In this document: positions 1 to 63,628 of the stretch, in pieces | Layout of the letters: each line of letters starts with the position of its first letter | Position numbering within the stretch: position 1 is the first letter of the stretch | NCBI GenBank assembly: GCA_902801465.1 | Contig: CADCIH010000001.1 | Coordinates: 62,001-126,000 of the forward strand | DNA from: an uncultured Bacteroidia bacterium | GTDB lineage: Bacteria; Bacteroidota; Bacteroidia; Bacteroidales; F082 | Length of the DNA: 64,000 nt | Direction of reading: 5' to 3' | Translations under genes and position numbers: made by a program | The notes under the pieces: model-generated | Database searches by the model: none | What the model saw: the letters and a program-made list of their open reading frames with translations, nothing else | Told to the model about the DNA's origin: nothing

Positions 1-2775
1 AATGAAATCGGCGCAGAAGGCGAGATCCGCAACGTGACCACCAACATGGACGAGATCTCGGGCCGCGAGGACAAATTGGTGCACTTCCTTCGCAAACAAG
101 TGCATACCGAAAGCAATAATACACTCATAGGCCTCACTCTCAGTGTGTTCAAGTTCTGGAGCGACGGAGTCAAGGAAAACCTGCGTTCTATCCTTCCAAA
201 CAACGTTTATGACAGCATCGACGTCAATAGCGAATGGTTCACCTATATCCATGACATCAGCGTTACCATGAGCGAGATCAGCTGTCTCGATCCCGAGGAC
301 CTGCTTATGCTCTCTCGTGAAGACTTCGACAAACTCATCGTCCGCGCTGTCGAGAAACTTGAACTCGACCCGACCATCGGCAGCCGGGAGCATGCACGCC
401 TCATGGATACCCGCGACCTCTATGCCTTCCTCCGTGAGAAATATTCGTTCGAAAGCGTCAACATCTTCAACTCGCTCCGAAGCTGCCCCTTCCTTGCGGA
501 CAAGGATATCGATGAGTTTGAGAACGCCTACAAAAACAAAGAAATTGGGAAGTCGTTGAAGTTAATCTATATGTTTATGGAAAAACTAAAACAGATTATC
601 TTCAATCCTGAAGAAAGCGAGGGCTGGGAAAACATATACCACAAACGCCATATCGCCATAGGTATCCCTTCGATGTACGGGACCTACCGTGAGAACAAGT
701 TTGAGGCCATGGGATTGACCTTCCGTCTCGAGCGTGTCGCTACCCAGTTGATGGAACAGGTGGTGCAGGGCATCAACCTAGAATACATCTCCGCCCGTAC
801 ACTCGAAGTGATATACGACATCCTCGAATACTTCCGCGAAGGCTTGGAACTCGATGGCATCACCAACCAAGGCCTTAACTCGAAACTCAAGATGCTCAAA
901 TATGCTTTGACCTCACGAAGCTTCTCGTTCGACCAATACATCAACATCTTCCAGTTTATTTCGGAAGATGTCAAGCGTATCGTCATCAGTTACTTCCTGA
1001 AATCGTATGAGTATCCCTTGAAAGTCATCGTTCCCCAACTCTTTGACCCCGAAGGTAAGCTTGACGAGCGTGAGACCGCTGCCTTGATTAGCAAGAAATC
1101 AGAGGAGTTCCATCGTGACCTTCTGTCGGATGCTTTCCTGATGCAGCCTTTGGACAATTTCATCACTCGCATTTTGAAATCTTTGAGAGGCATGGCCGCC
1201 GACCTTGACGATAAACTCATTAGGGATATCATGTCGTACAACTCCGAGATGCTGATCAGCCCCTTCTGGGAGGCCACGCCCAAGATGGACAACCAAGTGT
1301 TTATCGGCAACAAGGCCTATCATCTGAAAAACCTTTATCTGAATGGCCTTCCCGTACCTCCGGGCTTCGTGATCACCACCGAGACCTTCCGCCGCAACGA
1401 GACCATCAACACCATTCCTGAGCTGCGTTCCGAGATCCACGGGATGATACGTAAGTACATCAACGGATTGGAGGAAATTACCAAACGGAAGTTCGGCGAC
1501 CCGTCGAATCCGCTGCTTCTTTCTGTCCGTTCCGGAACGGCCATCTCCATGCCGGGAGCAATGGATACCCTCTTGAATGTCGGCTTGAACGACGAGATTG
1601 CTGATGCGGTGGCTCAAGAACCCGGCAAGGGCTGGGCCATCTGGGACTCGTACCGACGCCTGCTTCAAAGTTGGGGCATGGCCAAGGGCATCGAGCGCGA
1701 TGTGTTCGACGATGAGATCAACGCCTATAAACAAAAGACAAACGTGGTCATGAAAGCCGACTTCACCGCGGAACAGATGCGTGAGATCGCCATGGCCTAC
1801 AAACGTATCCTCGACGAACACCAGGTGGTGTTTGAGCAGGATTCGTTCAAACAACTTATCGAGTGCGTCAACATGGTCATCGACTCCTGGAACAGCGAGC
1901 GGGCCCTGGCTTACCGCCGTCATCTCGGCATCTCCGAAAACTGGGGTACTGCCGTCATCGTGCAACAGATGATCTTCGGCAACCGCAGCGCCACCTCGGG
2001 CACGGGTGTGGTATTCACCCAAAACCCCAACCGTGAGCGACCTGGCGTGCATCTCTATGGCGACTTCACCATGCGTAGTCAGGGCGAGGATATCGTGGGT
2101 GGCCTCGTGAAACCTTTGCCGATAGGGGAGACCCAGCGCAAAACCGCCAACCTCGAAGGCCCCTCCATGCAGACCATGCTGCCCGACATGTATCGCAAGA
2201 TCTATAACATCGCCGTGAAACTCACCGAGGAACTGGGCTACAGCCCCCAAGAGATCGAGTTCACCTTCGAGAGCGACAACCCTGACGATTTCTATATCCT
2301 TCAAACCCGTGACCAAGACCTCAAGACAACGGAAAACGGAAAACGGAAGACGGAAAGTTCCTTTGTTTTCGAGAATCCGACGCAAAGAATCCAACTTTCT
2401 GTCGGCCATGGCATGGGCATCGGTGGCGGAGCCATGAATGGCTTGGCAGCCTTCAATGCCAACCAAATCGAAGAGCTTCGTAAGCAATATCCTGAGGAGA
2501 ACGTCATCTTGGTCCGTCCCGACACGGTGCCCGATGACATCGGCATGATCTTCGACTGCGACGGCTTGCTCACCGCCCGTGGTGGTGCCACCTCGCATGC
2601 CGCGGTCACCGCAGTGCGCCTCGGCAAGGTCTGCGTGGTCAGCTGCGACGGCCTCGAAGTGGATGTCGACGACGAGTTCGGTTCCATCAACGGCCATCCC
2701 CTCCATGAAGGCGACAAGATTGCCATCGACGGAAGCCAAGGACTGGTTTATCTTGGGCATTATCCTATTGAATGA
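1..2775 (+). CDS. PEP/pyruvate-binding (PpsA/PPDK-like) protein, 5' end outside window
   Basis: The frame is open from base 1, so the true start lies upstream; a GTG at 34 is only an internal possibility (residues below count from it). About 420 N-terminal residues carry no motif I recognise. An ATP-grasp nucleotide-binding part follows ([10 protein letters not shown] near 425, [20 protein letters not shown] near 495), then a phosphohistidine swivelling domain with [12 protein letters not shown], phosphoacceptor His855 (codon 2596-2598). The protein ends about 58 residues later, so it lacks the C-terminal PEP/pyruvate TIM barrel of real PEP synthase and PPDK. It may transfer phosphate from ATP to a histidine for another acceptor; the substrate is unknown. 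A heptamer repeat is embedded in frame near residues 766-775 ([10 protein letters not shown]). Family call is firm, reaction is not. Confidence 0.85.
2331..2358. repeat. Heptamer array A1, inside the PEP/pyruvate-binding gene
   Basis: Four consecutive heptamers: GGAAAAC, GGAAAAC, GGAAGAC, GGAAAGT. The array is in frame and encodes a charged stretch between the ATP-grasp and swivelling domains. The same heptamer family recurs at 20183 and 63466. Confidence 0.85.
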
Positions 2776-2785
2776 AAATCTTTTG

Positions 2786-2793
2786 TATTTTTG
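2786..2793 (+). promoter_or_regulatory. -7 promoter box for lepA
   Basis: TATTTTTG fits the Bacteroidota sigma consensus TAnnTTTG. It ends five bases before the ATG at 2799, so the transcript would have almost no leader. It also lies inside the alternative longer lepA reading frame (from 2772), arguing against that start. Confidence 0.7.
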
Positions 2794-2798
2794 CGCCC

Positions 2799-4586
2799 AT
2801 GAAAAACATCCGAAACTTCTGCATCATCGCACATATCGACCACGGCAAATCAACCCTGGCCGACCGCCTTCTCGAACTTACCAAGACCGTCAGCGAGAAA
2901 GAACTCGTCGACCAGGTGCTAGACGACATGGACCTCGAACGTGAGCGCGGCATCACCATCAAGAGCCACGCCATCCAGATGAAATACAACTACAAGGGAG
3001 AGGTTTATACTCTCAACCTCATCGACACCCCAGGCCATGTCGACTTCTCATACGAGGTTTCACGTTCCATCGCCGCCTGCGAAGGAGCCCTCCTCGTAGT
3101 CGACGCCACCCAAGGTATCCAGGCTCAGACCATCGCCAACCTCTATTCAGCCTTGGAACACGACCTGGAGATCATCCCCGTGATGAACAAAATCGACATG
3201 GACAGCGCCATGATCGACATCGTGGAAGACCAGATCGTGGACCTGCTCGGCTGCGACCCCTCCGATATCCTCAAAGTGAGCGCCCGTACCGGTGAAGGCG
3301 TGCCTGCCGTGCTCGACGCCATCGTGGAAAAAGTGCCATGCCCCAAAGGCGACCCCGACGCGCCGCTGCAAGCACTGATCTTCGACTCGGTGTTCAACTC
3401 CTACCGCGGCATCATCGCCTACTACCGCATCATGAACGGCACCATCCGTACCAACGACCTGGTGAAGTTCTTCGCCACCGGCAAGGAATACAACGCAGAG
3501 GAAGTGGGCGTGCTGCAACTCAAACAAGTGCCCAAAGCCCAGCTCTCAGCTGGCGACGTGGGATACATCATATCGGGCATCAAGACCTCACGCGAAGTCA
3601 AGGTGGGCGACACCATCACCCATGTGGATCGCCCCTGCGACGAGCCTGTGGCTGGTTTCGAGAATGTGAAACCCATGCTGTTCGCGGGTATCTATCCCGT
3701 CGATGCCGACGACTATGAGGAACTCCGTGCCTCTCTCGAGAAGCTTCAACTCAACGACGCCTCCTTGGTGTGGGAACCCGAGTCCTCCGCCGCACTGGGC
3801 TTCGGCTTCCGTTGCGGCTTCCTCGGACTGCTCCACATGGAGATCGTCCAAGAACGCCTCGACCGTGAGTTCGACATGGATGTGATCACCACCGTTCCCA
3901 ATGTGTCGTTCAAATGCTTCAAGACCGACGGCGAGATGATCGAGGTGCACAACCCTTCAGGACTTCCCGAGGTGACCAAGATCGACCATATCGAGGAGCC
4001 TTATATCATCGCCCAGATCATCTCCAAGAATGATTTCACCGGTCCTATCATGACGCTCTGCATCGAGCGCCGCGGCGTGCTCAAAAACCAGGTGTATCTC
4101 TCCACCGACCGTGTGGAGCTTACCTTCCAGATGCCACTCAGCGAGATTGTGTTCGATTTCTACGACAAACTCAAGTCGATCTCCAAAGGCTATGCCTCGT
4201 TCGACTATCATATCGCAGGTTATCAAGATGCCGACCTGGTGAAACTCGACATCATGCTCAACGGCGAGTCGGTCGACGCCCTCTCCACCTTGATCCACCG
4301 AGGCCATGCCTACGACTTCGGTCGTCGCATGTGTGAGAAACTCAAGGAACTCATTCCACGCCATCAGTTCGACATCGCCATCCAAGCCGCCATTGGCGCC
4401 AAGATCATCGCCCGTGAGACGGTGCGTCAGGTCCGTAAGGATGTGACCGCCAAGTGTTATGGCGGCGACGTCTCCCGTAAACGCAAGCTCTTGGAGAAGC
4501 AGAAAGCAGGCAAGAAACGTATGCGCCAGATCGGGAACGTCGAGGTGCCCCAGTCCGCTTTCCTCGCCGTGCTGAAGCTGGATTAA
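2799..4586 (+). CDS. lepA: Elongation factor 4 (LepA), ribosomal back-translocase GTPase
   Basis: A 595-residue translational GTPase of usual LepA length. It begins with [20 protein letters not shown] (P-loop), followed by the switch motifs [10 protein letters not shown] and DTPGHVDF and the NKIDMD guanine-specificity motif. The C-terminal region ends with the family-typical [15 protein letters not shown]. It acts on the ribosome in the cytoplasm. I chose ATG 2799 rather than 2772 because homologues start MKNIRNF and because a promoter box lies between the two. The preceding gene ends at 2775. Its stop codon overlaps that of the convergent dprA. Confidence 0.97.
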
Positions 4587-5683: not shown

Positions 5684-5703
5684 AAATAAATTAATTGATG
5701 AAG

Positions 5704-5711
5704 CAAAAATA
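5704..5711 (-). promoter_or_regulatory. -7 promoter box for dprA
   Basis: On the minus strand TATTTTTG, matching TAnnTTTG, 20 bases upstream of the dprA ATG. Confidence 0.6.
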
Positions 5712-5788
5712 ATAAAATTATTTATATATGAATTCTTTCAATTAAAAATAATTCTGCATATCATATTCCGAATTCAGCATTAAATCGT

Positions 5789-14679: not shown

Positions 14680-14681
14680 CT

Positions 14682-14702
14682 CTAAATTCTAAATTATTAA
14701 TT
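14682..14702. repeat. Heptamer array A2
   Basis: CTAAATT, CTAAATT, ATTAATT in the short gap between the SDR and VOC genes, immediately upstream of the VOC start on the minus strand. Confidence 0.7.
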
Positions 14703-14707
14703 AATTG

Positions 14708-15577: not shown

Positions 15578-15645
15578 GAAGACGGGAGTCAGAAGTCTGA
15601 AGCTTCTTAATTCTTAATTCCTAATTCTAAATTCTTAATTCTAAA
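15578..15645. repeat. Heptamer array A3 in the alpha-oxoamine synthase leader
   Basis: Reading from 15578 in sevens: GAAGACG, GGAGTCA, GAAGTCT, GAAGCTT, then CTTAATT-type units to 15645. The last six, read as TTCTTAA/TTCCTAA/TTCTAAA from 15604, are nearly identical. It ends four bases before the ATG at 15650 and fills the leader. Confidence 0.85.
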
Positions 15646-20182: not shown

Positions 20183-20245
20183 GTGGAAAACGGAAAACAG
20201 AAAACGGAGAACGAAAAACGGAGAACGGAAAACTTTCCACTTTTC
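20183..20245. repeat. Heptamer array A5, with inverted ends
   Basis: Nine units in phase: GTGGAAA, ACGGAAA, ACAGAAA, ACGGAGA, ACGAAAA, ACGGAGA, ACGGAAA, ACTTTCC, ACTTTTC. The edges AAGTGGAAA (20181-20189) and TTTCCACTT (20234-20242) are exact inverted repeats, so the array can fold. Confidence 0.9.
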
Positions 20246-29210: not shown

Positions 29211-29231
29211 ACGCAAAGCGTTTTTTGTAAT

Positions 29232-29260
29232 AAAAATCCCGTCCATTGGGCGGGATTTTT
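29232..29260 (+). terminator. Terminator after korB
   Basis: AAAAATCCCG...CGGGATTTTT hairpin. The next promoter (29261-29268) starts at the very next base. Confidence 0.9.
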
Positions 29261-29268
29261 TATTTTTG
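29261..29268 (+). promoter_or_regulatory. -7 promoter box for the flavin reductase gene
   Basis: TATTTTTG immediately after the korB terminator. The 28-base leader is mostly heptamer array A6. Confidence 0.65.
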
Positions 29269-29273
29269 TAACT

Positions 29274-29294
29274 CTAAATTCTAAATTCTTAATT
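29274..29294. repeat. Heptamer array A6
   Basis: CTAAATT, CTAAATT, CTTAATT between the promoter and the ATG at 29297. Confidence 0.75.
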
Positions 29295-29296
29295 GA

Positions 29297-29902: not shown

Positions 29903-31219
29903 ATGAACGTCAAACCCTATATCGAAAACAAGAAAACCATCCTTGCGCTGAGCGGCGGCATCGATTCGATGGTGCTGGCCGATATGCTATTGCAGGCCAA
30001 AGCGGATTTCGTGTTGGCCCATTGTAACTTCCACCTGAGAGGAGAGGAGTCCGATAGCGATGAACAGTTTGTCCGAGACTATGCCGAACGGAAGGGCTTG
30101 TCGCTCTATGTGAAGCAGTTCGATACGCTAAACTATGCAGAGGAACATAAACTTTCCATTGAGATGGCCGCCCGTGAACTGCGTTATGCTTGGTTTGAAG
30201 AACTTCGGCAACAATTGAATTATGACTACATCGCTGTTGCCCATCATGCCGATGATCAATTGGAAACCTTCTTCATTAATCTATTAAGAGGCGCCGGAAT
30301 TCGAGGACTGAAAGGAATGAAGCCTGTCAATGGACATGTTATCCGACCTTTACTTGATGTATCACGAGGAGAAATTCATCAATATGCCATTGATAATGGG
30401 ATCCAATGGCGTGAGGACCATACCAATGCTGAAACCCAATTCCTCCGAAATAAGATTCGCCACGAACTGCTTCCAGTAATTGATGGCATCTCCAAAGAAG
30501 GGAGGAGCGCTATCTTGAAATCCATCAAACATTTGGCCTCAGAGAACGAGCTTTATCGAGAGCTAGTGATGGAGAAACTGTCGCAGATGGTAGCACCCCT
30601 TCGGGGTGCGAATTCTTGTGTGGGGTCTGATGCTACCGATATGGCATCCCTACGGGATGCGGAGGGCCTTAGATTCTCTCTCACCTCTCACCTCTTACCA
30701 CTAACCTCTCACCTTCTTTTTGAGTGGCTGCGCGATTATGGCTTTAACGAGGACCAAGTCCACTTCATTCATGAAGCCTTAAAAAACGGCCAACCTGGCA
30801 CCTGCTTCTTCTCCCCAACCCATCGGGTGACCGTCGAACGGGATGGCCTGGAATTGACACAGATTTATCAAAAATTCGATATAAATATTGTATTATCTTA
30901 TCAACAAGTCGAACATGACAAGAACTTCGAAATGGATAAATCCCCCGAAGTTGCTCAACTGGACTACGATAAGTTGACATTCCCTCTACAGCTGAGGAAA
31001 TGGCAGGCGGGTGACCGGTTCCATCCTTTGGGGATGAAAGGCTCTCGGCTGATAAGCGATTTCCTGAAGGATTTGAAGTGCACCACCTGCCAGAAAGAGG
31101 AGTGCCATGTCCTCACCGACGCCACCAATGCGATTGTGTGGGTGGTTGGAAGACGTATCGATGACCGTTTTAAAGTAACGGAAAAAACAAAAACCATTTT
31201 GATAGTTCGGAAGTCTTAA
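29903..31219 (+). CDS. tilS: tRNA(Ile)-lysidine synthase with repeat insertion
   Basis: 438 residues. The PP-loop SGGIDS (17-22) activates the wobble C34 of tRNA-Ile(CAU) for lysidine formation, letting it read AUA codons. HCNFHLRGEESD and AVAHHADDQLETFFINLLRGAG are also conserved. The C-terminal TilS domain begins near residue 345 (LRKWQAGDRFHPLGMKGSRLISDFLKDLK). Between them, about residues 231-270 are encoded by two REP-like palindromes and a heptamer array. The insertion keeps frame and the gene looks intact. Base composition is more AT-rich than in neighbouring korAB. Confidence 0.94.
   Translation: MNVKPYIENKKTILALSGGIDSMVLADMLLQAKADFVLAHCNFHLRGEESDSDEQFVRDYAERKGLSLYVKQFDTLNYAEEHKLSIEMAARELRYAWFEELRQQLNYDYIAVAHHADDQLETFFINLLRGAGIRGLKGMKPVNGHVIRPLLDVSRGEIHQYAIDNGIQWREDHTNAETQFLRNKIRHELLPVIDGISKEGRSAILKSIKHLASENELYRELVMEKLSQMVAPLRGANSCVGSDATDMASLRDAEGLRFSLTSHLLPLTSHLLFEWLRDYGFNEDQVHFIHEALKNGQPGTCFFSPTHRVTVERDGLELTQIYQKFDINIVLSYQQVEHDKNFEMDKSPEVAQLDYDKLTFPLQLRKWQAGDRFHPLGMKGSRLISDFLKDLKCTTCQKEECHVLTDATNAIVWVVGRRIDDRFKVTEKTKTILIVRKS
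30593..30660. repeat. Inverted pair of REP-like palindromes inside tilS
   Basis: First copy: GCACCCC, TTC, GGGGTGC (30593-30609). Second: GCATCCC, TAC, GGGATGC (30644-30660), preceded by GCTACCGATATG, which is the family tail in reverse orientation. Together they form a pair of opposite copies, like a BIME. Confidence 0.8.
30678..30712. repeat. Heptamer array A7 inside tilS
   Basis: CTCTCAC, CTCTCAC, CTCTTAC, CACTAAC, CTCTCAC. In frame, coding for LTSHLLPLTSHLL, 17 bases after the REP-like pair. Confidence 0.85.
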
Positions 31220-42440: not shown

Positions 42441-42477
42441 ATAACTTTTATCTTTATCTTTTATCTTTTATCTTCTC
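42441..42477. repeat. Heptamer array A8
   Basis: Units of AACTTTT, ATCTTT(T), ATCTTTT, ATCTTTT, ATCTTCT (one unit is six bases). The stop codon of the Tyr/His-rich lipoprotein lies inside it at 42468-42470. Confidence 0.75.
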
Positions 42478-43763
42478 CCTCCGCCGCTACGGCCGCCGCC
42501 ACTGCTATGGCTGCCACCGCCGCTGCTGCCTCTGCTGCTGCCACCGCCGCTGTAGCTGCTGCCGCTGCTACGGCTGCTGCTCGAACTGCTTCTTGAAGAA
42601 GAGCTGCTTTGGTTGAAGCTGCCGCTGGAGGAGTGGTTTCTGCTAGGAGTGGAAACGCTACGGCTGCTGGAGTTGCTGCTGGATCCGCGGTTGATGCTTC
42701 CGTTGCTCGAGGAAGAGGGTCTAGTGGTAGTCGTTGAAGGTCTGCTGGTCGATGACTGCGGACGTACATATTCAGAGCTGGAGCGTGGTTGACGGGTTTC
42801 GGAAGGTGAGGTGTAGGTGCTGCGGCTCGATGAGGCGTTGTTTGTGCTGGGTCGGGCACTGGCAGTGCCGGTGTTGGGACGAGCGCTGGCGGTTCCTGCG
42901 TTGGGACGCACGCTGCTTGCGTTTGTATTGGTCGGACGAGAGCTTATGGTGGGACGGCTGGAGACGGTAGGCCTGGTGCTGTTTCCTGTGCTGGGGCGTC
43001 CTGAGACTCCTGCACTGGCACCTTTCGGGTTGTTGTTCTGAGGCGTGCGGTAGCTCATCGAGCCAGGGGTGTTGTTGCGACGCACTGTTGCCACATAGTT
43101 GGAGAAGTCGTTGTGACCGCCGTAACCGTAGCCATGACCATAGTAGTCGTGATGGTGGTGATGATGGTGATGATGATGCCAGGGATGATACCAATAGTGG
43201 TCGTACCAGCCCCAATGATAGCCGTACCAGTAGTAGGGACGGTACCAGTAATAGTCGTAATACCACGGGTCGTAATATCCGTAGTAGTAATGCGGATAAT
43301 AGTAGTAGCTGTAGTGATACGGATAGAATCCCCAGTTCCACGAGTCGTTTACATAAACATAGGTGTTTCCGCCGCTGTAGGTGCTACCCGTATAGTAATC
43401 GTCGTAATAGTCCATGGTGGAGCTGGCGTTTGTTCCGAAACGCTTGATGCGGGCAGCGAAGTCGGCATCGTAGTAGGTCTCGGTGGTGGTGTAAACCACG
43501 CCGTTGGTGTCGGTCACCGATTCAGTTGATTGGTACACGGGATTGGTATTCGACACGTAGTTCTTGCTGTCGGAATAATAAGCCTGGTAGTCGTAAGTAC
43601 CACTGCTGCTGATGCTCGGCGAGACGGTGTTGTCGGCACGTTGGCTGCGCGGAGGGTTGTAAGGCGAGTAGTAGGTGTCGTCATAAGCCATCCTCTTGTT
43701 TGAGGAGCAACCGGCGATGGCGAGGACTGCCAGCATGATGGGAATGATTCTAATTGCTTTCAT
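42468..43763 (-). CDS. Tyr/Trp/His-rich low-complexity lipoprotein
   Basis: 431 residues. The lipobox is AIAGCSSN. From about residue 145 to 230 the protein is dominated by Tyr, Trp and His (YYYYPHYYYGYYDPWYYDYY and similar), including a run of ten consecutive His. After that comes a Ser/Arg/Pro/Thr/Gly-rich tail (SVRPNAGTASARPNTGTASA repeats, then poly-Ser/Gly). No enzymatic domain is present. A metal-binding or surface-adhesive role is plausible; nothing shows it directly. The repeats keep frame throughout, and the stop codon is provided by a heptamer array. Confidence 0.85.
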   Translation of the reverse strand: MKAIRIIPIMLAVLAIAGCSSNKRMAYDDTYYSPYNPPRSQRADNTVSPSISSSGTYDYQAYYSDSKNYVSNTNPVYQSTESVTDTNGVVYTTTETYYDADFAARIKRFGTNASSTMDYYDDYYTGSTYSGGNTYVYVNDSWNWGFYPYHYSYYYYPHYYYGYYDPWYYDYYWYRPYYWYGYHWGWYDHYWYHPWHHHHHHHHHHDYYGHGYGYGGHNDFSNYVATVRRNNTPGSMSYRTPQNNNPKGASAGVSGRPSTGNSTRPTVSSRPTISSRPTNTNASSVRPNAGTASARPNTGTASARPSTNNASSSRSTYTSPSETRQPRSSSEYVRPQSSTSRPSTTTTRPSSSSNGSINRGSSSNSSSRSVSTPSRNHSSSGSFNQSSSSSRSSSSSSRSSGSSYSGGGSSRGSSGGGSHSSGGGRSGGGRR

Positions 43764-47587: not shown

Positions 47588-48367
47588 ATGGACGAGCGAC
47601 TAGAAGCATTTAAGCGATTATTGGACATCATGGACAAGGTGAGGGAAGGCTGCCCTTGGGACAGCACCCAGACCATTGAAAGCCTGCGGCATCTGACTAT
47701 TGAAGAGACATACGAACTGAGCGAGGCCATTCTGGCTGAGGACCTTAACGAGGTAAAGAAAGAATTGGGCGACCTGATGCTGCATCTGGTATTTTACGCC
47801 AAAATCGGGAGCGAGAAGGGGGCCTTCGACATCACCGATGTGCTCAATGGTATTTGTGACAAGATGGTGGTGCGCCATCCTCATATCTTTGGCGACGAGA
47901 AGGTGGAGAATGCCGAACAAGTGGAGCAAAACTGGGAGAAGATCAAGCTGGAACGCGAGCATAACCGTAGCGTGTTGGGCGGTGTTCCTCAAGGACTTCC
48001 ATCGCTGCTGAAGGCTTATAGGATGCACCAGAAAACCGCTGGTGTGGGCTTCAAATGGCCCAGCGCCGAAGAAGCCTGGAACAAGGTGGAGGAAGAAAAG
48101 AAAGAGCTGTTTGACGAGCTCCGTAAGAGCGACAATCAGGATAACATCGAAGCGGAATACGGCGACCTTCTGTTTGCGCTCGCGGCCTACGGTGTTTATA
48201 TAGGTGTGAATCCCGATGATGCCTTGGAGAAAACCAACAAAAAGTTCAAAAGCCGTTTCGGCCATGTTGAACAGAGAGCCCGAGAGATGGGCAAGGGCGT
48301 GCAGCATCTGACGTTGGAAGAGATGATCGGGTTTTGGAAAGAAGCGAAAGAGAAGATAAAAGATTAG
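47588..48367 (+). CDS. mazG: Nucleoside triphosphate pyrophosphohydrolase MazG
   Basis: 259 residues with two MazG domains. EETYELSEAI (about residue 35) and GDLMLHLVFYAKIG belong to the first; WNKVEEEKKELFDEL and EYGDLLFALAAYGVYIGV to the second, active one. It hydrolyses nucleoside triphosphates to monophosphate and pyrophosphate, cleaning the nucleotide pool. Length is normal. The C-terminal KEKIKD and stop codon are part of heptamer array A9. Confidence 0.95.
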   Translation: MDERLEAFKRLLDIMDKVREGCPWDSTQTIESLRHLTIEETYELSEAILAEDLNEVKKELGDLMLHLVFYAKIGSEKGAFDITDVLNGICDKMVVRHPHIFGDEKVENAEQVEQNWEKIKLEREHNRSVLGGVPQGLPSLLKAYRMHQKTAGVGFKWPSAEEAWNKVEEEKKELFDELRKSDNQDNIEAEYGDLLFALAAYGVYIGVNPDDALEKTNKKFKSRFGHVEQRAREMGKGVQHLTLEEMIGFWKEAKEKIKD

Positions 48368-48388
48368 AGATAAAAGATAAAAGTTATA
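48354..48388. repeat. Heptamer array A9
   Basis: AGATAAA, AGATTAG, AGATAAA, AGATAAA, AGTTATA. It covers the last mazG codons (stop 48365-48367) and extends past the stop. Confidence 0.8.
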
Positions 48389-48418
48389 AAAAACAAGGTG
48401 GTATTTTTGAAAAATTGT

Positions 48419-51855: not shown

Positions 51856-52538
51856 GACAAATTCACAAACGGATACATGAGGAAGGAACACGAGCGATCA
51901 TTGTCGCTCTTTCGATTGCCATTATTGTTGTGGTAGGCCTGAACTTGCTATGGCCTCATCAGACGTTTTGGCATGTGATGGTGTATGTGGCTTTTGCCAT
52001 TGTCTTCTTCCTAGTGGTGCGTTTCTTTAGAGTGCCTATCACCCGTAAGACCACCATCTTGGACAATGCGGTGATCTCTCCTGCCGACGGCATCATTTCG
52101 GCCGACGAGGTGGTGATGGAGGATGAGTATTTTCATGAGAAGCGTCGCAAACTGTCAATCTTCATGTCGATCTACAACGTGCATATCAACTTTTTCCCAT
52201 TTGACGGAACGGTCACCTATTATAAATACCATCCGGGCAAATACCTCGTGGCGTTTAAGCCAAAGTCGTCTGTTGACAACGAACACAACAGCATCGCTAT
52301 TCAGGACCATCAAGGTCGGGAGGTGTTGGTGCGACAGATAGCAGGTTTTGTCGCTCGTCGTATTGTGTGTGACTTGGAGCCTGGTGACGCTTCTGTGGTG
52401 GGTGAGGAGTTTGGTATGATTCGCTTTGGTTCCCGTGTGGATGTGTTTCTCCCGTTGGATGCCGAGGTTGATGTCCATATCGGACAGGTCGTACGCGCGA
52501 AGACATCGGTGTTGGCGATGTTTAAAGTGGAAAGTTGA
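51852..52538 (+). CDS. psd: Phosphatidylserine decarboxylase
   Basis: 228 residues of the short bacterial Psd group. Two N-terminal membrane segments (about 17-58) are followed by SPADGIISADEV, MSIYNVHINFFPFDGTV and the self-cleavage site FGSRVD, where Gly-Ser gives the pyruvoyl prosthetic group. It converts phosphatidylserine to phosphatidylethanolamine. The last codons (KVES and stop) fall in heptamer array A10. Confidence 0.94.
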   Translation: MRQIHKRIHEEGTRAIIVALSIAIIVVVGLNLLWPHQTFWHVMVYVAFAIVFFLVVRFFRVPITRKTTILDNAVISPADGIISADEVVMEDEYFHEKRRKLSIFMSIYNVHINFFPFDGTVTYYKYHPGKYLVAFKPKSSVDNEHNSIAIQDHQGREVLVRQIAGFVARRIVCDLEPGDASVVGEEFGMIRFGSRVDVFLPLDAEVDVHIGQVVRAKTSVLAMFKVES

Positions 52539-52567
52539 GAGTGGAGAGTGGAAAGATTATAAGATTC
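52526..52567. repeat. Heptamer array A10 between psd and the TrmH-HAD gene
   Basis: AGTGGAA, AGTTGAG, AGTGGAG, AGTGGAA, AGATTAT, AAGATTC. The psd stop TGA (52536-52538) and the HAD stop (minus strand, 52559-52557) are both inside the array. Confidence 0.85.
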
Positions 52568-53795
52568 CCTTGATTTCTGATAGACTGCTTACTTCGAAGG
52601 TGCATTGGCCTTGGGCGGGTTGACCTGTGGCGTTGAAGAAGACCTGATCGATGCCTGCGGCACGTGCTCCGTCGATGTCAACAGCCATCTCATCGCCGAT
52701 CATCAGGCTTTCTTCAGGGGTGGCTCCTGCTTTCTTTAAGGCATATCGGAAGATTTCTGGGTTGGGCTTCTTCGCGCCGACTTCCTCTGAAACGGTGAGG
52801 GTCTCGAAATAGGGTTCCATGCCTGAGCCGCTCAGTTTGGTGTGTTGCACTTCCTCGAAACCGTTGGTGATCAGGTGTAGATGGTATTTCGGCTTTAGGT
52901 ATTCCAACAGCTCCATGGTGCCGGGGACTAGTCTTACAATACGTGGTGACCAATATACGTAATCTTCGCTCAAATGGTCGGCAAGCGCTATGTCGTGGAT
53001 GCCGTAGTGTTCCAAAGGCTTCAGGAAACGGGTGCGGTTCAATTCGTCTTTGGTGATTTGGTCAGCGCGATACAGTTCCCAGAGTTTTTCGTTCAAGGGG
53101 TGATAAACCATGTGGAACTCGTGAGCACTGGGGATACCGAGTTCTTTGAGGTGGTATTGCTCATATATCCGTTCAAAGGCAACTTCGGCTGCGGCGTCGA
53201 AATCCCAAAGGGTGCGGTCAAGGTCGAAAAACAGGTGACGATAGCACTTCTTACTTCTTACTTCTCCTTTCTTACTTCTCATTCTCATTTGTCGTTGCCA
53301 CTCAAACAAGGCGACTGCAGCGGCGTGACTGACATTGAGCGAGCGGGTAGGGCCGGGAACGGGGATATAAACCACCATGTCGCATTGTTTTAAGAGCTCT
53401 TCCCTGATGCCATGGCGTTCGCTGCCCACGATGAAAGCAGCATTTTCGGGGAGCTGGGTGTCGTAGATGCAGGTTGCGTTGTCGGCGGTTTCGATGGCGA
53501 CGATGCTCTTGCCTTCGGGGACGATTTTATGTAGGTCAGTCTCTTCGCTGAAATACCAACGTATGTTGTCGCGGCTTGAGGCGGCTGACCGGCGCACCTT
53601 CCCCAAACGATGTTCGTCCTCGTTGCCCATAAAACATACTTCGGTGGCCCCGATGTTGTCGGCCAAACGGATGATGGCTCCCAGGTTGTCGGGTGTCATC
53701 AGGTGGTCGGCGATGAGCATGGGACGGGGAACGTGACGGTAAAGGTCCTCAGTGGGTATTTGTTCGAAAAGGTCGTTTGATTTAAGGTACGACAT
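52557..53795 (-). CDS. TrmH-type rRNA/tRNA methyltransferase fused to a HAD phosphatase
   Basis: 412 residues. The N-terminal part (about 1-169) is a SPOUT/TrmH methyltransferase: LMTPDNLGAIIRLADNIGA, IVGSERHGIREELLKQCD, IPVPGPTRSLNVSHAAAVALF. The C-terminal part (about 185-412) is a HAD hydrolase of the YjjG/pyrophosphatase-like type: FFDLDRTLWDFD (motif I), LITNGFEE (motif II), EEVGAKKPNPEIF (Lys of motif III), MIGDEMAVDIDGARAAG (motif IV). They are joined by repeat-encoded residues (about MRSKKGEVRSKKC). An internal ATG lets HAD start on its own (MRMRSKK). The join has no stop, so the fusion reading holds at DNA level. Confidence 0.85.
   Translation of the reverse strand: MSYLKSNDLFEQIPTEDLYRHVPRPMLIADHLMTPDNLGAIIRLADNIGATEVCFMGNEDEHRLGKVRRSAASSRDNIRWYFSEETDLHKIVPEGKSIVAIETADNATCIYDTQLPENAAFIVGSERHGIREELLKQCDMVVYIPVPGPTRSLNVSHAAAVALFEWQRQMRMRSKKGEVRSKKCYRHLFFDLDRTLWDFDAAAEVAFERIYEQYHLKELGIPSAHEFHMVYHPLNEKLWELYRADQITKDELNRTRFLKPLEHYGIHDIALADHLSEDYVYWSPRIVRLVPGTMELLEYLKPKYHLHLITNGFEEVQHTKLSGSGMEPYFETLTVSEEVGAKKPNPEIFRYALKKAGATPEESLMIGDEMAVDIDGARAAGIDQVFFNATGQPAQGQCTFEVSSLSEIKGIL
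53246..53287. repeat. Heptamer array A11 at the TrmH-HAD junction
   Basis: ACTTCTT, ACTTCTT, ACTTCTC, CTTTCTT, ACTTCTC, ATTCTCA: six units, 42 bases, hence a multiple of three and without stops in the minus-strand frame used. Confidence 0.9.
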
Positions 53796-54774
53796 GGGGT
53801 TGCGGGTTAGGGGTTAGAGGAGTGGTGTCGGTTAGGGTATGTAGAAAAGCCTTGAGTTGCGCTTTCTCTTCGATGGTGAGACGGACACCGCCTTCCATGA
53901 CATGGTGCATCAGTGGGCTGATCTGTTCGGAGTACTGGACACCTTCGGAGTAGAAGTCGATGACCTCATCTAGGGTGCTGAAACGACCGTCGTGCATGTA
54001 AGGGGCGGTGAGTGTAATGTTGCGTAGTGTGGGAGCTTTGAATTCGCCTTTCGAAGCGGCATCTAAACCGTTGTTGTACAGCAAGTTGGTCGTAAACAGG
54101 GCGTTGGTGCCTCCGCCGTGGCAGTGGAAACAGTCAGCTCCTTCCTCGGTGATGAAAAGGAGATAGCCGTTCAGTTCATCCTGGTTGAGTTGTTCCTCGC
54201 CCTTAAGATATCGGTCGAACTTGCTGTTGGCGAACACCAGGCTTCTTATGTATTGTGCGATGGCCTTCTCCACTAGGACAAAGCTAATCTCGTCGGTACC
54301 GAAGGCCTTCTTGAAGAGCTCGGGATAGATATCGGACTGTCGGAGCCGCTTGGCTACTTCGGCGGTATCGGCATTGATTTCCAACGGGTCGGTATAGGCG
54401 GCATACACCATGTCTTCAAGGGTCTCGACTTGGCCTTTCCAGCCCAAGCCGGTGGTGTTCCATACCAGATTAATCAAGGGGAGCATGGTGTGTTCTGTTC
54501 CAAGATGCTCCAGGGTGGCATCGGGCCCGCCTTCAAAACTGTATTCCTTATGATGGCACATGGCGCAACTGTTTTCTTCGTGGAACAGTTTCTCGCCGAG
54601 GGCGACGCCTTCGACGGTCATGGGGTTGTCGGCGGGGATGTTGTTATGGGTGGGGAAAAACAGAGGGGATGGCAATTCATAGGGGGTGGGATGCCAAGGC
54701 TCCTCCTCGGTGGGCTTACAGGAGAGGAGCAACAGCAACGACAGCGTTCCGAGAATGGCCAGACTTCTTATCAA
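53782..54774 (-). CDS. Di-heme cytochrome c peroxidase / MauG family (MbnH-like) lipoprotein
   Basis: 330 residues if started at TTG 54774, whose last bases overlap the TGA of the upstream gene (TTGA). That start gives a good lipoprotein signal (MIRSLAILGTLSLLLLLSC). A longer frame upstream has no signal and is rejected. Two c-type heme sites are seen: CAMCH and CFHCH, with the MauG/CCP pattern HDGRFSTLDEVIDFYSEG. With the MbnP-like partner upstream it forms an MbnH/MbnP-type pair. The C-terminal tail (PLTPNPQPHVVP) is encoded by heptamer array A12 and overlaps the trmH start by 14 bases. Confidence 0.83.
   Translation of the reverse strand: MIRSLAILGTLSLLLLLSCKPTEEEPWHPTPYELPSPLFFPTHNNIPADNPMTVEGVALGEKLFHEENSCAMCHHKEYSFEGGPDATLEHLGTEHTMLPLINLVWNTTGLGWKGQVETLEDMVYAAYTDPLEINADTAEVAKRLRQSDIYPELFKKAFGTDEISFVLVEKAIAQYIRSLVFANSKFDRYLKGEEQLNQDELNGYLLFITEEGADCFHCHGGGTNALFTTNLLYNNGLDAASKGEFKAPTLRNITLTAPYMHDGRFSTLDEVIDFYSEGVQYSEQISPLMHHVMEGGVRLTIEEKAQLKAFLHTLTDTTPLTPNPQPHVVP
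53796..53837. repeat. Heptamer array A12
   Basis: GGGGTTG, CGGGTTA, GGGGTTA, GAGGAGT, GGTGTCG, GTTAGGG. It codes for the C-terminal tail of the MauG-like protein and lies directly before the TrmH-HAD start on the minus strand. Confidence 0.75.
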
Positions 54775-57966: not shown

Positions 57967-59370
57967 TCAACCCTGTTGTTTCAGGTGTTCCACGAACTCG
58001 TCGATGCGTCGCATCTCGTTTGCGATGGCGATTTTTTGTGGGCAGTGCTCTTCGCATTGGTGGCAGCCGATGCAGTGACTGGCTTGTCGCTCGTAAGGTA
58101 CCTTGCTATCGTAGCCTAAAAGGAATGCACGGCGGTTGCGGCGGTATTCCTCGGCTTCGGGGTTGCCTGCCGGCATGTTGCCTTCGGTGATGCAGTCGTT
58201 GTAATGAGCGAAGATGGCAGGGATATTCAGGCCGTAGGGGCAGGGCATGCAGTAGTTGCAGGCGGTGCAGGGCACGGTCTTGAGCTCCACAAACTCTTCG
58301 GCGACTTTCATCAGGAACTCGTTTTCGTCGGGTGTGATGGGTCTCAAGGGCGAGTAGGTGGCCACGTTTTCCATGAGGTGTTCCATATAGGTCATGCCGC
58401 TTAATACGACTAACACGCCTTCGGGGGTGCCGGCGAAGCGGAAGGCCCAGCGTGCCACGGGGGTCTCAGGCTCACGTTCTTTCATCTGTTTCACGATGAA
58501 GTCGGGCTGTTTGGCGAGACGACCACCGAGCAGAGGCTCCATGATGACCACGGGGATGCCGCGACGGTGAAGCTCCTCGTAGAGGTAGTTGGCGTTGACG
58601 TTGTCAGGGTCGATGCGGTTGGCATAATTCCAGTCGGCATAGTTCATCTGAATCTGGACGAAGTCCCAATGGTATTTGCCTTCGTCATGCCAGCGCAGCA
58701 TGGTGTCGAATACCTCCTGTTCGCCATGGAAGGAGAAGCCCAGGTTGCGGATGCGGCCAGCTTCTTTTTGCTCCACGAGCCAGTCGAGGATGCCGTTCTC
58801 AATGAATCGGGCGTTGAACATGTCCATGCCGGTCATGTCTTTCCCACTGCCACCGATACTGTGAAGCAGCAGGTAATCGACATAATCGGTTCGCAGTTCG
58901 CTGAGCGAGTGTTCGAACATGGCCTTGGAAGCCTCGGTGCTCCAAGTAGAGGGACTGAAATTCGATAGTTTTGTTGCGATATAATAACTATTGCGTGGAT
59001 GTCTCGACAGGGCGATACCTGTGACGCCTTCGGAGCGACCTCGTGTATATACTGGGGCGGTATCGAAGTAGTTGACACCATGCTCGAGGGCGTAGTCGAT
59101 TTCTTCGTTGACCATTTCTTGATCCACCTGTGCATCAGGATTTTGGCGCAGGTCGGCTCCGCCTTCGATGGGAAGACGCATCATGCCATAACCCAGTAAC
59201 GACACTTTGTCGCCGCTGTTGGGGTTGACACGATAGGTCATCTCCCCTTGTCCGTCGATGACTTCGGCGGGGATGATTTCGTTGTTATTATTCGATTTGC
59301 AGGCGGAGAGCACCACCGAGGTTGCCACGGCAGCGCCGCCCATTTTCTTTATGAATTCTCTTCTTTTCAT
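57967..59370 (-). CDS. Aldo/keto reductase with C-terminal 4Fe-4S domain, Tat-exported
   Basis: 467 residues from ATG 59370. An open frame extends to 59712 but shares no conserved sequence and runs through the neighbour. The N-terminus MKRREFIKKMGGAAVATSVVLSAC is a twin-arginine signal with a lipobox-like Cys. The AKR barrel (about 50-330) starts VSLLGYGMMRLPIEGG and has GVNYFDTAPVY and YVDYLLLHSIGG. The ferredoxin part has CTACNYCMPCPYGLNIPA and CIGCHQCEEHCPQKI. Probably a periplasmic ferredoxin-linked oxidoreductase, receiving electrons from the polyferredoxin encoded upstream. Array A13 separates them. Confidence 0.87.
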   Translation of the reverse strand: MKRREFIKKMGGAAVATSVVLSACKSNNNNEIIPAEVIDGQGEMTYRVNPNSGDKVSLLGYGMMRLPIEGGADLRQNPDAQVDQEMVNEEIDYALEHGVNYFDTAPVYTRGRSEGVTGIALSRHPRNSYYIATKLSNFSPSTWSTEASKAMFEHSLSELRTDYVDYLLLHSIGGSGKDMTGMDMFNARFIENGILDWLVEQKEAGRIRNLGFSFHGEQEVFDTMLRWHDEGKYHWDFVQIQMNYADWNYANRIDPDNVNANYLYEELHRRGIPVVIMEPLLGGRLAKQPDFIVKQMKEREPETPVARWAFRFAGTPEGVLVVLSGMTYMEHLMENVATYSPLRPITPDENEFLMKVAEEFVELKTVPCTACNYCMPCPYGLNIPAIFAHYNDCITEGNMPAGNPEAEEYRRNRRAFLLGYDSKVPYERQASHCIGCHQCEEHCPQKIAIANEMRRIDEFVEHLKQQG

Positions 59371-59391
59371 CTTACTTCTTACTTCTAATCC
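59371..59391. repeat. Heptamer array A13
   Basis: CTTACTT, CTTACTT, CTAATCC. It fills the space between the polyferredoxin stop (59387-59385, inside the array) and the AKR start. Confidence 0.75.
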
Positions 59392-60773
59392 ATTCGATGC
59401 ATTACGTTTCCTTCTACATAGATTGCGCTGAACGGCCTTGAGGGGCAGAGGTTCTCGCAGGCGCCGCAGCCGATGCAGCGGCTTTCGTTGATGGCGGGAA
59501 TCATCACGGTCTGGCCGTTGTGTTGGTATTCGACCATTTGGATGGCGCCGGTGGGGCAGTGGCGTTGGCAGTTGCCGCAGCTGACTCCGTCGGTGAGTAC
59601 CACGCAGTTGTCCTTCACCCACACGGCGTGACCGGCATGGATGGCGGTCTTCTCTTCCTTGGTGATGGGTTTGATGGCGCCGGTGGGGCAGACCTCGCCG
59701 CAGCGGGTGCATTCGGGGCGGCAGTAGCCTATCTCGAACGACATGGTAGGCTGCATGAAATGCATGAGGTCGGTCGAGGGGCGCAAGACGTTGTTAGGGC
59801 AAGCCGACACGCAGAGCTGGCATCCGGTGCAGTGTTTTTGCATGTGGCGTGCGGAGACGGAGCCTGGGGGCGTGATGAGCGTCTGGCGTTTGGGAGCTTC
59901 TTTCTCAGTGATGACAGCCAGTCCGCCGTCTACCTTCATCTGAGCCTGAGCCACGGCCGCGGTGCCAGCGGCGATGGCGGAGCCGACCAGGAACGAACGG
60001 CGACCCAGGTCGGGTTCTGATGAAGCCGTTTCAGTTTTTGAAACAGGGCGTTTGGCGGTGTAATGCAGTGCATCGAACTTGCATTGTGCGGTACAGTCGC
60101 CGCATACCACACATCTCGAATAGTCAACGGTACCTGCCTTGGCATCGATGGCGCGGGCCTTGCAGTTCTTCTCGCAGAGACCGCAGTGCTTGCACTTGTC
60201 CTGGTCGAACCTGACACGGAACAGCGAGAACCTGGAGAAGAAGCTGAGGATGGTGCCTACGGGGCAGATGGAGTTGCAATAGGCGCGACCATAAAGGAAG
60301 GCCAGCACGCCGAGGATGAGCATCATAACCCAAGCGATGATTGAGAGAGTGACGTTGCGCATGTAGAAACTGGTGACGATACGTCCGAAGTTGCCGTAGG
60401 GTTCCAATAAGGTGATCACAGGGGTGAAGCCAAAGATGAGGCAGATGACAAAAATGGCGCAGACGGTGTAACGTAGCCATTTGTGTTCTTTCACGTAGCT
60501 GAAACGGTTTTTCTTGATCTTGCCGCCAAGCCAGCTGTAGATGTCCTGCATGACGCCCAAAGGGCAGACGATGCTGCAATAGATCCTGCCGAAAAGCAAT
60601 GCTACGACAATGATGGCCACTGCGATGAGCGACAAGGAAAGCACAGCGGGCAGGAACTGGATCTTAGCCGCCCAACCGATCCATTGGCTGATGCCGTAGC
60701 CGGCTCCAATGAAGAGGGTGGTGACCAGCAGGATCATGATGACGGCGAGGGTGATTCGGAGCTTTTTTAGCAT
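59385..60773 (-). CDS. Membrane polyferredoxin, NapH-NapG type fusion
   Basis: 462 residues. The N-terminal half is NapH-like: four membrane segments with two cysteine motifs (YCSIVCPLGVMQD, YCNSICPVGTIL) and 4Fe-4S motifs CKHCGLCEKNCKA and CVVCGDCTAQC. In the middle (about residue 250) a Tat-like segment GRRSFLVGSAIAAG precedes a NapG-like ferredoxin with CTGCQLCVSACP, CTRCGEVCPTGA, CGNCQRHCPTGA and CIGCGACENLCP. It likely relays quinol electrons across the membrane to periplasmic clusters, and thence perhaps to the AKR protein. Start ATG at 60773; the stop is in array A13. Confidence 0.88.
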   Translation of the reverse strand: MLKKLRITLAVIMILLVTTLFIGAGYGISQWIGWAAKIQFLPAVLSLSLIAVAIIVVALLFGRIYCSIVCPLGVMQDIYSWLGGKIKKNRFSYVKEHKWLRYTVCAIFVICLIFGFTPVITLLEPYGNFGRIVTSFYMRNVTLSIIAWVMMLILGVLAFLYGRAYCNSICPVGTILSFFSRFSLFRVRFDQDKCKHCGLCEKNCKARAIDAKAGTVDYSRCVVCGDCTAQCKFDALHYTAKRPVSKTETASSEPDLGRRSFLVGSAIAAGTAAVAQAQMKVDGGLAVITEKEAPKRQTLITPPGSVSARHMQKHCTGCQLCVSACPNNVLRPSTDLMHFMQPTMSFEIGYCRPECTRCGEVCPTGAIKPITKEEKTAIHAGHAVWVKDNCVVLTDGVSCGNCQRHCPTGAIQMVEYQHNGQTVMIPAINESRCIGCGACENLCPSRPFSAIYVEGNVMHRMD

Positions 60774-60780
60774 AAGTTGG

Positions 60781-60829
60781 GAATTAGGAATTAGGAATTA
60801 GGAATTAGGAATTATGAATTAGGAATTGA
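60781..60829. repeat. Heptamer array A14
   Basis: GAATTAG x4, GAATTAT, GAATTAG, GAATTGA: seven consecutive units. It lies just upstream of the polyferredoxin start, eight bases from a REP-like palindrome. Confidence 0.92.
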
Positions 60830-60836
60830 ATTATCC

Positions 60837-60870
60837 ACACCCCATCGGGGTGCCACATCGGTAGGATTAT
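60837..60870 (+). repeat. REP-like palindrome next to array A14
   Basis: CACCCC, loop ATC, GGGGTG (60838-60852), then the tail CCACATCGGTAGGAT. It overlaps the end of the T9SS gene (stop at 60867) and follows A14 by seven bases. Confidence 0.8.
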
Positions 60871-62228: not shown

Positions 62229-62256
62229 GATAAAAATGGCTTTTTGTTTTGATAAA

Positions 62257-62264
62257 CAAAGGTA
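62257..62264 (-). promoter_or_regulatory. -7 promoter box for the beta-helix gene
   Basis: Minus-strand TACCTTTG, 28 bases upstream of ATG 62228. Confidence 0.6.
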
Positions 62265-62277
62265 TGTTTTTTTTCCT

Positions 62278-62285
62278 TATCTTTG
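62278..62285 (+). promoter_or_regulatory. -7 promoter box for the response regulator
   Basis: TATCTTTG, 20 bases before ATG 62306. It is inside the longer reading frame (from 62249), which is therefore rejected. Confidence 0.7.
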
Positions 62286-62305
62286 CAAGGAAAGAAAAAA
62301 TCAAT

Positions 62306-63466: not shown

Positions 63467-63535
63467 GTGGAGAACGGAAAATGGAGAACGGAAAACGGAA
63501 AATTTTCAGTTCTCCGTTCTCCGTTTTCCGTTCCA
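63466..63535. repeat. Heptamer array A15, inverted halves
   Basis: Ten units: AGTGGAG, AACGGAA, AATGGAG, AACGGAA, AACGGAA, AATTTTC, AGTTCTC, CGTTCTC, CGTTTTC, CGTTCCA. The second half is close to the reverse complement of the first, giving a long hairpin just after the response regulator stop; it may act as a terminator. Confidence 0.9.
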
Positions 63536-63563
63536 ACCCCTTGCGGTGGAACGAAATTTGTTG

Positions 63564-63571
63564 TATTTTTG
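63564..63571 (+). promoter_or_regulatory. -7 promoter box for ssrA
   Basis: TATTTTTG, 59 bases upstream of the mature tmRNA 5' end. The precursor leader contains array A16. Confidence 0.6.
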
Positions 63572-63593
63572 CGCCGTGTTCTTTGAAAGCAAA

Positions 63594-63628
63594 AACTTTC
63601 CGTTTTCCGTTTTCAACTTTCCACTTTA
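63594..63628. repeat. Heptamer array A16 in the tmRNA leader
   Basis: AACTTTC, CGTTTTC, CGTTTTC, AACTTTC, CACTTTA, ending two bases before the mature tmRNA end. Confidence 0.85.

Follow-up and report, generated by a model that had tools for sequence, protein, structure and literature searches.

Tandem repeats with a unit of seven nucleotides have been described in several bacterial lineages. Two Xanthomonas genomes carry 186 and 183 dispersed arrays of a degenerate heptamer (GGGAATC, or GGGGA(C/T)T), which are mostly intergenic, lie nearer to the upstream open reading frame (ORF), are scarce between divergent ORFs, form 70 and 75 convergent opposed pairs and vary in length and sequence between close species; their function is said still to be elucidated (PMC4692102). 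One Calothrix strain has three heptamer types (cited in PMC4692102). Direct repeats of TAACTGA are present in Beggiatoaceae, in some Cyanobacteria and in five Bacteroidetes, mostly in intergenic regions and often near a start codon, and at a few Bacteroidetes loci they occur together with other heptamers and close relatives lack them (PMC4679880). In a 2007 survey of prokaryotic 5-11 nt repeats by Mrazek et al., most genomes had heptanucleotides as their most frequent long repeats (cited in PMC4679880), and polymerase slippage together with a 7-nt polymerase contact was proposed (cited in PMC4679880 and PMC4692102). Here we analyse heptamer arrays in the genome of an uncultured Bacteroidia bacterium of the order Bacteroidales (F082 lineage; 2.46 Mb, 34 contigs) and its relatives, with a 64,000-nt stretch of contig C1 (bases 62001-126000, 51% G+C), hereafter the window, as the reference. 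Its nearest relatives are uncultured Bacteroidales genomes, several of them from goat, sheep, yak or deer gut, and a ruminant is the probable host. The arrays are probably the product of a fast and largely neutral mutational process, the products of which are filtered by selection.

Period specificity, unit families and distribution

An initial annotation of the window had listed at least 16 dispersed arrays of seven-base units. Periods were detected with a self-match scan (match +1, mismatch -1.5; main cut-off score ≥12) and with Tandem Repeats Finder (TRF). At score ≥12 the scan found 14 period-7 segments covering 495 bases in the window and none in any of 30 dinucleotide shuffles; periods 4, 5, 6, 8, 10 and 11 gave no segment, period 3 gave two and period 9 one, and the signals at 14, 21 and 28 are echoes of 7. 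Lowering the cut-off to 10 yielded 16 period-7 segments spanning 2325 to 63627, in agreement with the number first listed, and 17 of the 48 TRF rows have period 7. Two details of the initial annotation are less secure: its GGGGTTA array (53796-53817) is among the weakest TRF rows (score 30) and is missed by the self-match scan at 10, and the changes of unit type in phase are partly forced by any period-7 scan and do not count as independent evidence.

The analysis was then extended to 464 kb of the same genome (19%), consisting of the window and 20 stretches of 20 kb at spaced coordinates; the places of one unit had already been listed at that time and were not used for choosing the stretches. 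Unless stated otherwise, counts for this genome refer to this sample. The scan at score ≥12 found 89 period-7 segments (3,145 bases), with none in one shuffle and none in three more, against 0, 4, 1, 4, 1 and 1 segments for periods 5, 6, 8, 9, 10 and 11, respectively. At scores of 8, 10, 12, 15 and 20 the period-7 counts were 120, 98, 89, 72 and 31, and those of three shuffles 6-10, 0-2, 0, 0 and 0. Because periods 6 (81 segments) and 9 (70 segments) are also numerous at score 8, the weak segments are not specific to period 7. Across the 2.46 Mb, the 14-mer AACGGAAAACGGAA was matched exactly 109 times with overlaps included, and its reversed control never. The initial observation is therefore real and specific, the scan behind it covering 19% of the genome. 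The arrays are heptamer simple sequence repeats in the usual sense, that is, 7-nt tandem units above chance, and the whole genome would hold about 470 of them provided that the sample is fair.

Written on the purine-rich strand, the units fall into four families: F1 (GGARAAC, with TGARAAC and GGAAAGT), F2 (AARAGWT), F3 (GAATKNR, including AATTAAG, AATTTAG, AATTAGG, AATGCGG and AATTCGG) and F4 (AGAAGTR). A simple pattern rule assigned 32 of the 89 arrays to F1, 32 to F3, 18 to F2 and 6 to F4, leaving one without a family. The variants of one family are interspersed within arrays, and some arrays combine two families.

Arrays are likewise present in relatives. Of 26 genomes of the genus, some represented by no more than 19-60 kb, 18 gave one array or more at score 12 and the other 8 (short samples among them) gave none. 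Without the genome under study, the genus yielded 92 period-7 segments, against 81 for periods 5, 6 and 8-11 summed. The dominant units are AAAACGG, AAGAATT and AAAAGAT in our genome, AGGAGTG and AAAAGAT in G033, AAGTTTG in G017, AACAGAT in G011 and AGAGTGG in G024, with AAAAGAT and AAAACGG shared between genomes: the period persists across the genus while the unit sequences change. Beyond the genus, 20 genomes from other families of the order (359 kb) gave 7 period-7 segments, not above period 8, and a wide spread within the order was rejected on this absence of an excess. In 37 more distant named loci (601 kb), 11 period-7 segments were found against 2-5 for each of the periods 5, 6 and 8-11.

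As in Xanthomonas and Nostoc, the arrays described here lie near the upstream ORF, are scarce between divergent genes and form convergent opposed pairs. Those organisms have one G-rich, quadruplex-forming unit, whereas four families are found here, with other families in sister species; the commonest units here have no GGG run, as judged by unit sequence alone, and in-frame arrays occur in protein linkers. The TAACTGA repeats consist of one exact unit with 169 sets in the whole draft genome and with related heptamers rarely repeated, in contrast to the degenerate, multi-family arrays of this study (89 in 464 kb). The survey of Mrazek et al. covers long repeats, and the citations of it mention no replacement of one family by another at the same site. 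Taken together, the heptads are best viewed as a multi-family variant, with apparently fast turnover, of the Xanthomonas, Nostoc and Beggiatoaceae heptamers, within the same broad class. The initial annotation's remark that no description of this multi-sequence form in Bacteroidota was known holds in part. Heptamers, and mixtures of them at a few loci, are already known there (TAACTGA in five Bacteroidetes, PMC4679880); our literature search, beyond the reach of which lay most subscription papers, found no genome-wide multi-family account in that phylum. Nor did that search turn up a description of several families mixed throughout one genome, of one family replacing another at a given site in close species, of heptads next to a dispersed core, or of genes fused by heptads. 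In species of this genus the seven-base step is kept as the sequence turns over, at orthologous sites with and without inserts, which makes insertion, slippage, replacement and selection separable. The explanation put forward earlier for the number seven had the status of a proposal.

Insert replacement and unit steps at orthologous sites

The SpoU and HAD domains are encoded by a single ORF in our genome (52557-53795) and by two overlapping genes in many relatives, in which the junction is about 32 nt long and the HAD start lies inside the SpoU stop (ATGA, as read from the sequences). A tree of 43 rows was built from the window and 42 of the 44 loci L059-L102 (without L087 and L090); the insert labels of L062, L074, L089 and L093, wrong or doubtful as first scored, were set by hand, and L068/L085 and L097/L099 are near-copies. 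After this correction 16 junctions are short and 27 are filled. Junction length is divisible by three in 24 of the 27 filled rows and in 4 of the 16 short ones. The inserts are heptads of the GAAG, GGAAT, AGGT and CGGGAC types, a REP-like pair (REP, repetitive extragenic palindrome) of the GTCGAAG type, and others. Their labels change 20 times on the tree (19 times as first scored), the minimum for seven labels being 6; filled versus short changes 10 times, and the heptad family changes 8 times among the 22 heptad rows. On the starred branches alone there are at least 6 changes for GAAG-type and 5 for GGAAT-type inserts, with labels as first scored. The sisters L063 and L070 (support 100/99) differ in heptad family although their flanks are 97% and 94% identical, and L069 has a REP-like insert where its sister branch, L068 plus L085, has heptads.

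A second site is the linker of TilS, for which 25 of 30 loci were compared, the other five lacking clean anchors. The linker measures 21-24 nt in 10 of the 25 rows and is longer in the others, and its length is a multiple of three in all 25. AGGTGAG-type heptads are found in our genome and in L299, GCAATGAC- or GTCGAAGG-type inserts in 11 rows, and inserts of other kinds in L305 and L307. The 11 in-frame inserts of the GCAATGAC and GTCGAAGG types are those of L300, L302, L303, L308, L312-L314, L316, L317, L320 and L321 (L300 equals L303), and we take both types to be REP-like. Heptads offer a simple route for joining overlapping genes in one frame, as in SpoU-HAD, or for extending a protein linker, as in TilS. 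The PPDK-like protein, within whose gene another array lies, has a matched span of 913 residues in our genome and in a number of near relatives; in most of the other relatives the span is 904-905.

The leader of the flavin reductase gene gives a non-coding counterpart. It holds an F3 array in our genome and in L301 and an AACTGCC-type array in L299 and L302, with none in L325 and L326. In the window (29211-29296) and in these five loci, a terminator-like hairpin is followed by a TATTTTTG box, after which comes either a heptad leader or, almost immediately, the start codon, depending on the species. The TATTTTTG box resembles the Bacteroidota -7 element.

Array lengths differ in steps of the unit. 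Between L069 and L169, with flanks 97% and 96% identical, an AGAGTTT array differs by 14 nt; between L085 and L102, with flanks 85-87% identical, the SpoU-HAD array differs by 7 nt, the L102 junction being out of frame; and, as counted by eye, one 7-nt unit separates the L299 array from that of L302. Unit number thus changes by whole units between related species. Together with the replacement of inserts at one site in close species, these 7- and 14-nt differences support the active process that the initial annotation had suspected. We also looked for a background of decayed arrays. In non-coding DNA outside arrays the fraction of lag-7 matches is 0.2594, against 0.2632 at lag 5 and 0.2619 at lag 8; such a background was rejected on this absence of a lag-7 excess, which is weak evidence, as the score-9 array mask itself lowers the lag-7 figure. 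Few half-decayed arrays are apparent, which could fit a quick turnover.

Gene context, opposed pairs and a dispersed core

Genes were called with our own codon-usage script, which missed at least tilS (its array is outside the in-gene set), so that the in-gene and intergenic counts are approximate. The 89 arrays comprise 47 in tandem gaps, 14 in convergent gaps, 3 in divergent gaps, 19 inside genes and 6 at gene edges; among gaps shorter than 600 nt, an array is present in 38 of the 207 tandem gaps, in 10 of the 38 between convergent genes and in 2 of the 35 between divergent genes. In tandem gaps the distance to the upstream stop codon clusters near zero and that to the next start is scattered; F2 and F3 arrays often include the stop codon, and F1 arrays mostly begin directly after it. 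Coding sequence acts as a filter on the families: 18 of the 19 in-gene arrays are F1 and one is F4, counted as arrays, several of which are the two arms of one pair or lie in one gene. Concatemers of GGAAAAC, GGAGAAC and GGAAAGT are free of stops in all six frames; with TGARAAC, the F2 units, AATTAAG, AATTTAG, AATTAGG and AGAAGTA/G, one strand or both have stops in every frame; no stops arise from AATGCGG, AATTCGG and AGAAGAC. The in-gene bias fits removal by selection, except for the stop-free F3 units, which are absent from called genes.

Outside genes, 43 arrays are single, 38 of them with a stop codon nearby, and in 31 of these 38 the purine strand is the sense strand. This bias, the strict spacing and the arrays that reach the next start codon would suit a protein or RNA that reads every seven bases and for which the arrays serve as binding sites or as elements of translation leaders. 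We hold this explanation to be improbable: the units vary between species, even close relatives differ in them at one and the same site, the genes next to arrays in the window have unlike functions, arrays lie in protein linkers, and the bias may have a simpler cause if a purine-rich leader is tolerated ahead of a start codon. A dedicated protein binding every seven bases, one of the processes first suggested, finds no support, because the units vary between species, arrays occur in linkers and their places follow coding limits.

Neighbouring arrays are strongly oriented in this genome. Of 22 pairs within 120 nt, 21 run from a purine-rich to a pyrimidine-rich array, none runs in reverse and one is pyrimidine-pyrimidine; 7 of the 21 opposed pairs involve arrays within called genes, and by inspection the arms belong to the same family in 19. 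Elsewhere in the genus, 24 neighbouring pairs include 13 inverted ones, of which 7 are purine-first (RY), 4 are pyrimidine-first (YR) and 2 have both arms below half purine (YY). The four YR pairs and one scored as unlike are made of TTAG-type units and come from five genomes; in the L229 pair (G009), GGCTAAA-type units stand first and TTAGCC-type units last, opposite to the other TTAG-type pairs. Two general rules were rejected on these counts: a universal purine-first order is broken by the 4 pyrimidine-first pairs among 13, and a single order per family fails outside our genome because the L229 pair runs the other way round. The single arm order therefore holds for this genome but does not extend to the genus.

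The purine-then-pyrimidine order of all 21 pairs, the closeness to stop codons and the excess of occupied convergent over divergent gaps would agree with selected transcription terminators or RNA-stability hairpins in which the U-rich arm comes last. The chance of this explanation being correct is nevertheless small in our judgement. A third of the pairs (7 of 21) involve in-gene arrays, in relatives the palindrome lies in frame within SpoU-HAD, the pyrimidine arm comes first in 4 of 13 inverted pairs of other species, and the 43 single extragenic arrays are unable to form a hairpin.

One sequence recurs beside heptads. The pattern CCGTTTTACCTCC, which includes one F1 unit to the left of a core, has 12 matches in our genome and none for its control. 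All 12 copies run on into the same core (in a variant form at L286), with surroundings that are unlike by eye; on the far side of the core stand TTCCGTT-type units in 10 copies and TTCCACT in L289 and L292, about one to several units as judged by eye. An internal 18-mer of the core has 13 exact copies (control, 0), of which the one in L025 is flanked by CCACTTT- and CAACTCT-type units instead. As one core stands with heptads at 12 loci, arrays can be copied together with a core. Expansion by slippage alone, which had been suggested at first, is insufficient for the same reason and because a few unit families recur at many loci.

Could the arrays then be the arms of small mobile hairpins, similar to REP elements or miniature inverted-repeat transposable elements (MITEs) and moved by a Y1/IS200-type transposase, with single arrays as collapsed hairpins? 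The single arm order in 21 of 21 pairs, the same-family arms of 19, the core at 12 loci, the REP-like inserts at the same sites in relatives and the presence of a Y1_Tnp domain in 28 of 40 genus genomes, ours included, would all suit such elements. REP elements and bacterial interspersed mosaic elements, MITEs (PMC10969869) and Rickettsia palindromic elements are short palindromes inserted at dispersed places along gene edges and at times, in frame, within genes, and REP-like inserts share sites with heptads here. These elements, however, have a constant sequence, whereas most heptad arrays have no constant core. Flanks matched those of another array cluster in 15 of 71 clusters, the other 56 having no match; among the 15, only 3 share the core, 4 lie beside a second REP-like palindrome, some lie at paralogous gene ends and the remainder are weak, and two more pairs sharing a centre were found by pattern. 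The constant palindrome expected of REP elements and their associated tyrosine transposases (RAYTs) was thus found for one core family only, with 13-14 copies, and the families have no constant sequence in common that a transposase might recognise. Moreover, G017 carries arrays without a Y1_Tnp match and G032 has Y1_Tnp with no arrays in 100 kb. Mobile hairpins therefore seem to us an unlikely origin of the arrays.

We favour the largely neutral mutational process. In such a process, short stretches of 7-nt repeats would be inserted at new places, their length would shift in 7-nt steps by replication slippage, and they would be lost or replaced over time; selection would retain arrays that lie past a stop codon, in a 5' leader or, in frame and free of stops, in a protein linker, and would seldom retain those between divergent genes. 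New arrays might mostly be copied from arrays elsewhere, when a stalled or broken 3' end switches template via short homology, which could at times bring along a REP-like core; priming from both sides may yield the opposed pairs, and the polymerase may set the 7-nt step, in line with what has been proposed for heptamers of bacteria generally.

Several results weigh against this reading. It leaves period 7 itself unexplained, and in G009 (L229-L231) and G024 (L174-L178) there are also 10 and 6 period-8 segments beside the heptamers, with 4 more in G033 (L139-L143). A donor locus was identified for no new array. The single arm order of our genome is not predicted by plain slippage, and the purine-sense bias of the single arrays could mean function. 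None of the 32 F3 arrays lies in a called gene of our genome, yet the stop-free units AATGCGG and AATTCGG exist. The SpoU-HAD insert labels are somewhat clustered on the tree, the labels as first scored changing 19 times where shuffles average 23.3 and a count as low arising in 1 of 200 shuffles, so that part of the inserts is inherited.

Candidate enzymes and features of the window

Three kinds of enzyme were considered as the source of the arrays. An RVT_1 domain is present in 22 of 40 genus genomes, ours included, with no match in G011 and G024, both of which carry arrays; RVT_1 enzymes in general were rejected as the writer on this ground. The Y1 transposase alone was rejected likewise, since it has no match in G017 despite 1.04 arrays per 10 kb. 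The single reverse transcriptase (RT) of our genome corresponds to PADLOC RT_UG26 (E = 1e-157) and also scores against RT_UG17 (6e-32); UG26 is found in 16 of 60 genus genomes, ours included, the others being 53-78% identical. Median array density was 0.69 per 10 kb in 12 genomes with UG26 and 0.49 in 14 without, and UG26 does not track density by genome (Mann-Whitney p = 0.92; 26 genomes, a small set uncorrected for kinship), on which ground this RT too was rejected as the writer. The pooled densities are 1.16 per 10 kb for UG26 genomes, a figure that comes mostly from our own genome, and 0.61 for the others.

These results bear on the proposal, present in outline in the initial annotation as templated expansion, that an RT with a 7-nt RNA template writes heptads on DNA 3' ends, by analogy with telomerase or DRT10. 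UG17 is the DRT10 class, which makes tandem-repeat cDNA, and resembles the present case in that its repeats are short and vary in sequence between homologues; the repeats of the best-studied system are 9 nt long and form cDNA rather than a chromosomal array (PMC12632851). A fixed arm order might be expected if both 3' ends of a break were extended, and the UG17 score of our RT and the pooled densities point the same way. With no link between UG26 and density by genome, and with arrays in G011 and G024 where RVT_1 has no match, templated synthesis by an RT lacks support, and we regard it as very improbable. Equally remote, in our estimate, is an enzyme of a novel type that adds 7-nt repeats strand-specifically to DNA 3' ends during repair, so that an opposed pair would be a healed break extended from both sides, comparable to interstitial telomere repeats with templates that vary between species; it is made less likely by the L229 pair, which breaks the fixed arm order.

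Two observations concern the RTs themselves. The UG26-type RT gene of our genome (G000:C5:60381-61577; L188, L249) is preceded by an F2 array. In G017, locus L195 (G017:C1:125968-126465) encodes a Drt3a-type RT (280.4 bits, against an NCBIfam cut-off of 200), and some 1 kb downstream of it RVT_1 matches again (G017:C1:127502-127951).

Heptamer arrays of the window, with strand and gene context
Position	Strand	Unit or family	Context
2325..2355	+	F1 (GGAAAAC)	Within PPDK-like gene (34-2775), between ATP-binding and mobile domains
14681..14703	-	F3 (AATTTAG)	Occupies most of the 28-nt gap separating two minus-strand genes
15604..15645	-	F3	Ends 4 nt ahead of aminotransferase start codon
19393..19446	-	F2 (AAGATAA/AAGTTAA)	Spans stop codon of VTC-domain gene, reaches DUF4956 gene
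20185..20233	+	F1	Begins 2 nt past DUF4956 stop codon
29270..29294	-	F3	Between terminator-like hairpin and flavin reductase start
30678..30714	-	AGGTGAG-type	Within tilS, interdomain linker
42453..42474	-	F2	Spans stop codon of minus-strand gene 42468-43763
48353..48389	+	F2	Contains stop codon of MazG-domain gene
52524..52555	+	AGTGGAG/AAAGTGG	Between convergent ends of phosphatidylserine decarboxylase and SpoU-HAD genes
53246..53290	-	F4 (AGAAGTA)	SpoU/HAD interdomain linker in single ORF 52557-53795
59370..59386	-	F4-type (AGAAGTA), short	From stop codon of minus-strand gene 59385-60773
60777..60827	+	F3	Directly upstream of minus-strand ferredoxin-domain gene, adjoining REP-like palindrome
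63469..63502	+	F1	Purine arm of opposed pair, begins 2 nt past response-regulator stop codon
63503..63532	-	F1	Pyrimidine arm of the pair formed with 63469..63502
63597..63627	-	F1	Ends 3 nt ahead of tmRNA gene

A search of the window against Rfam returned the tmRNA (63631-63997) and one tRNA, and nothing else. For a separate REP-like palindrome, TACCGATGTGGCACCCCGATGGGGTGCGG, 19 core matches were counted over the 464 kb, with window copies at 60852 and 29886. One copy adjoins the array at 60777, and weaker copies lie near the arrays at 19393 and 30678. The palindrome is also present at 9488-9541 of L022, and L026 (4806-5072) holds six copies in tandem, at a spacing near 53 nt.

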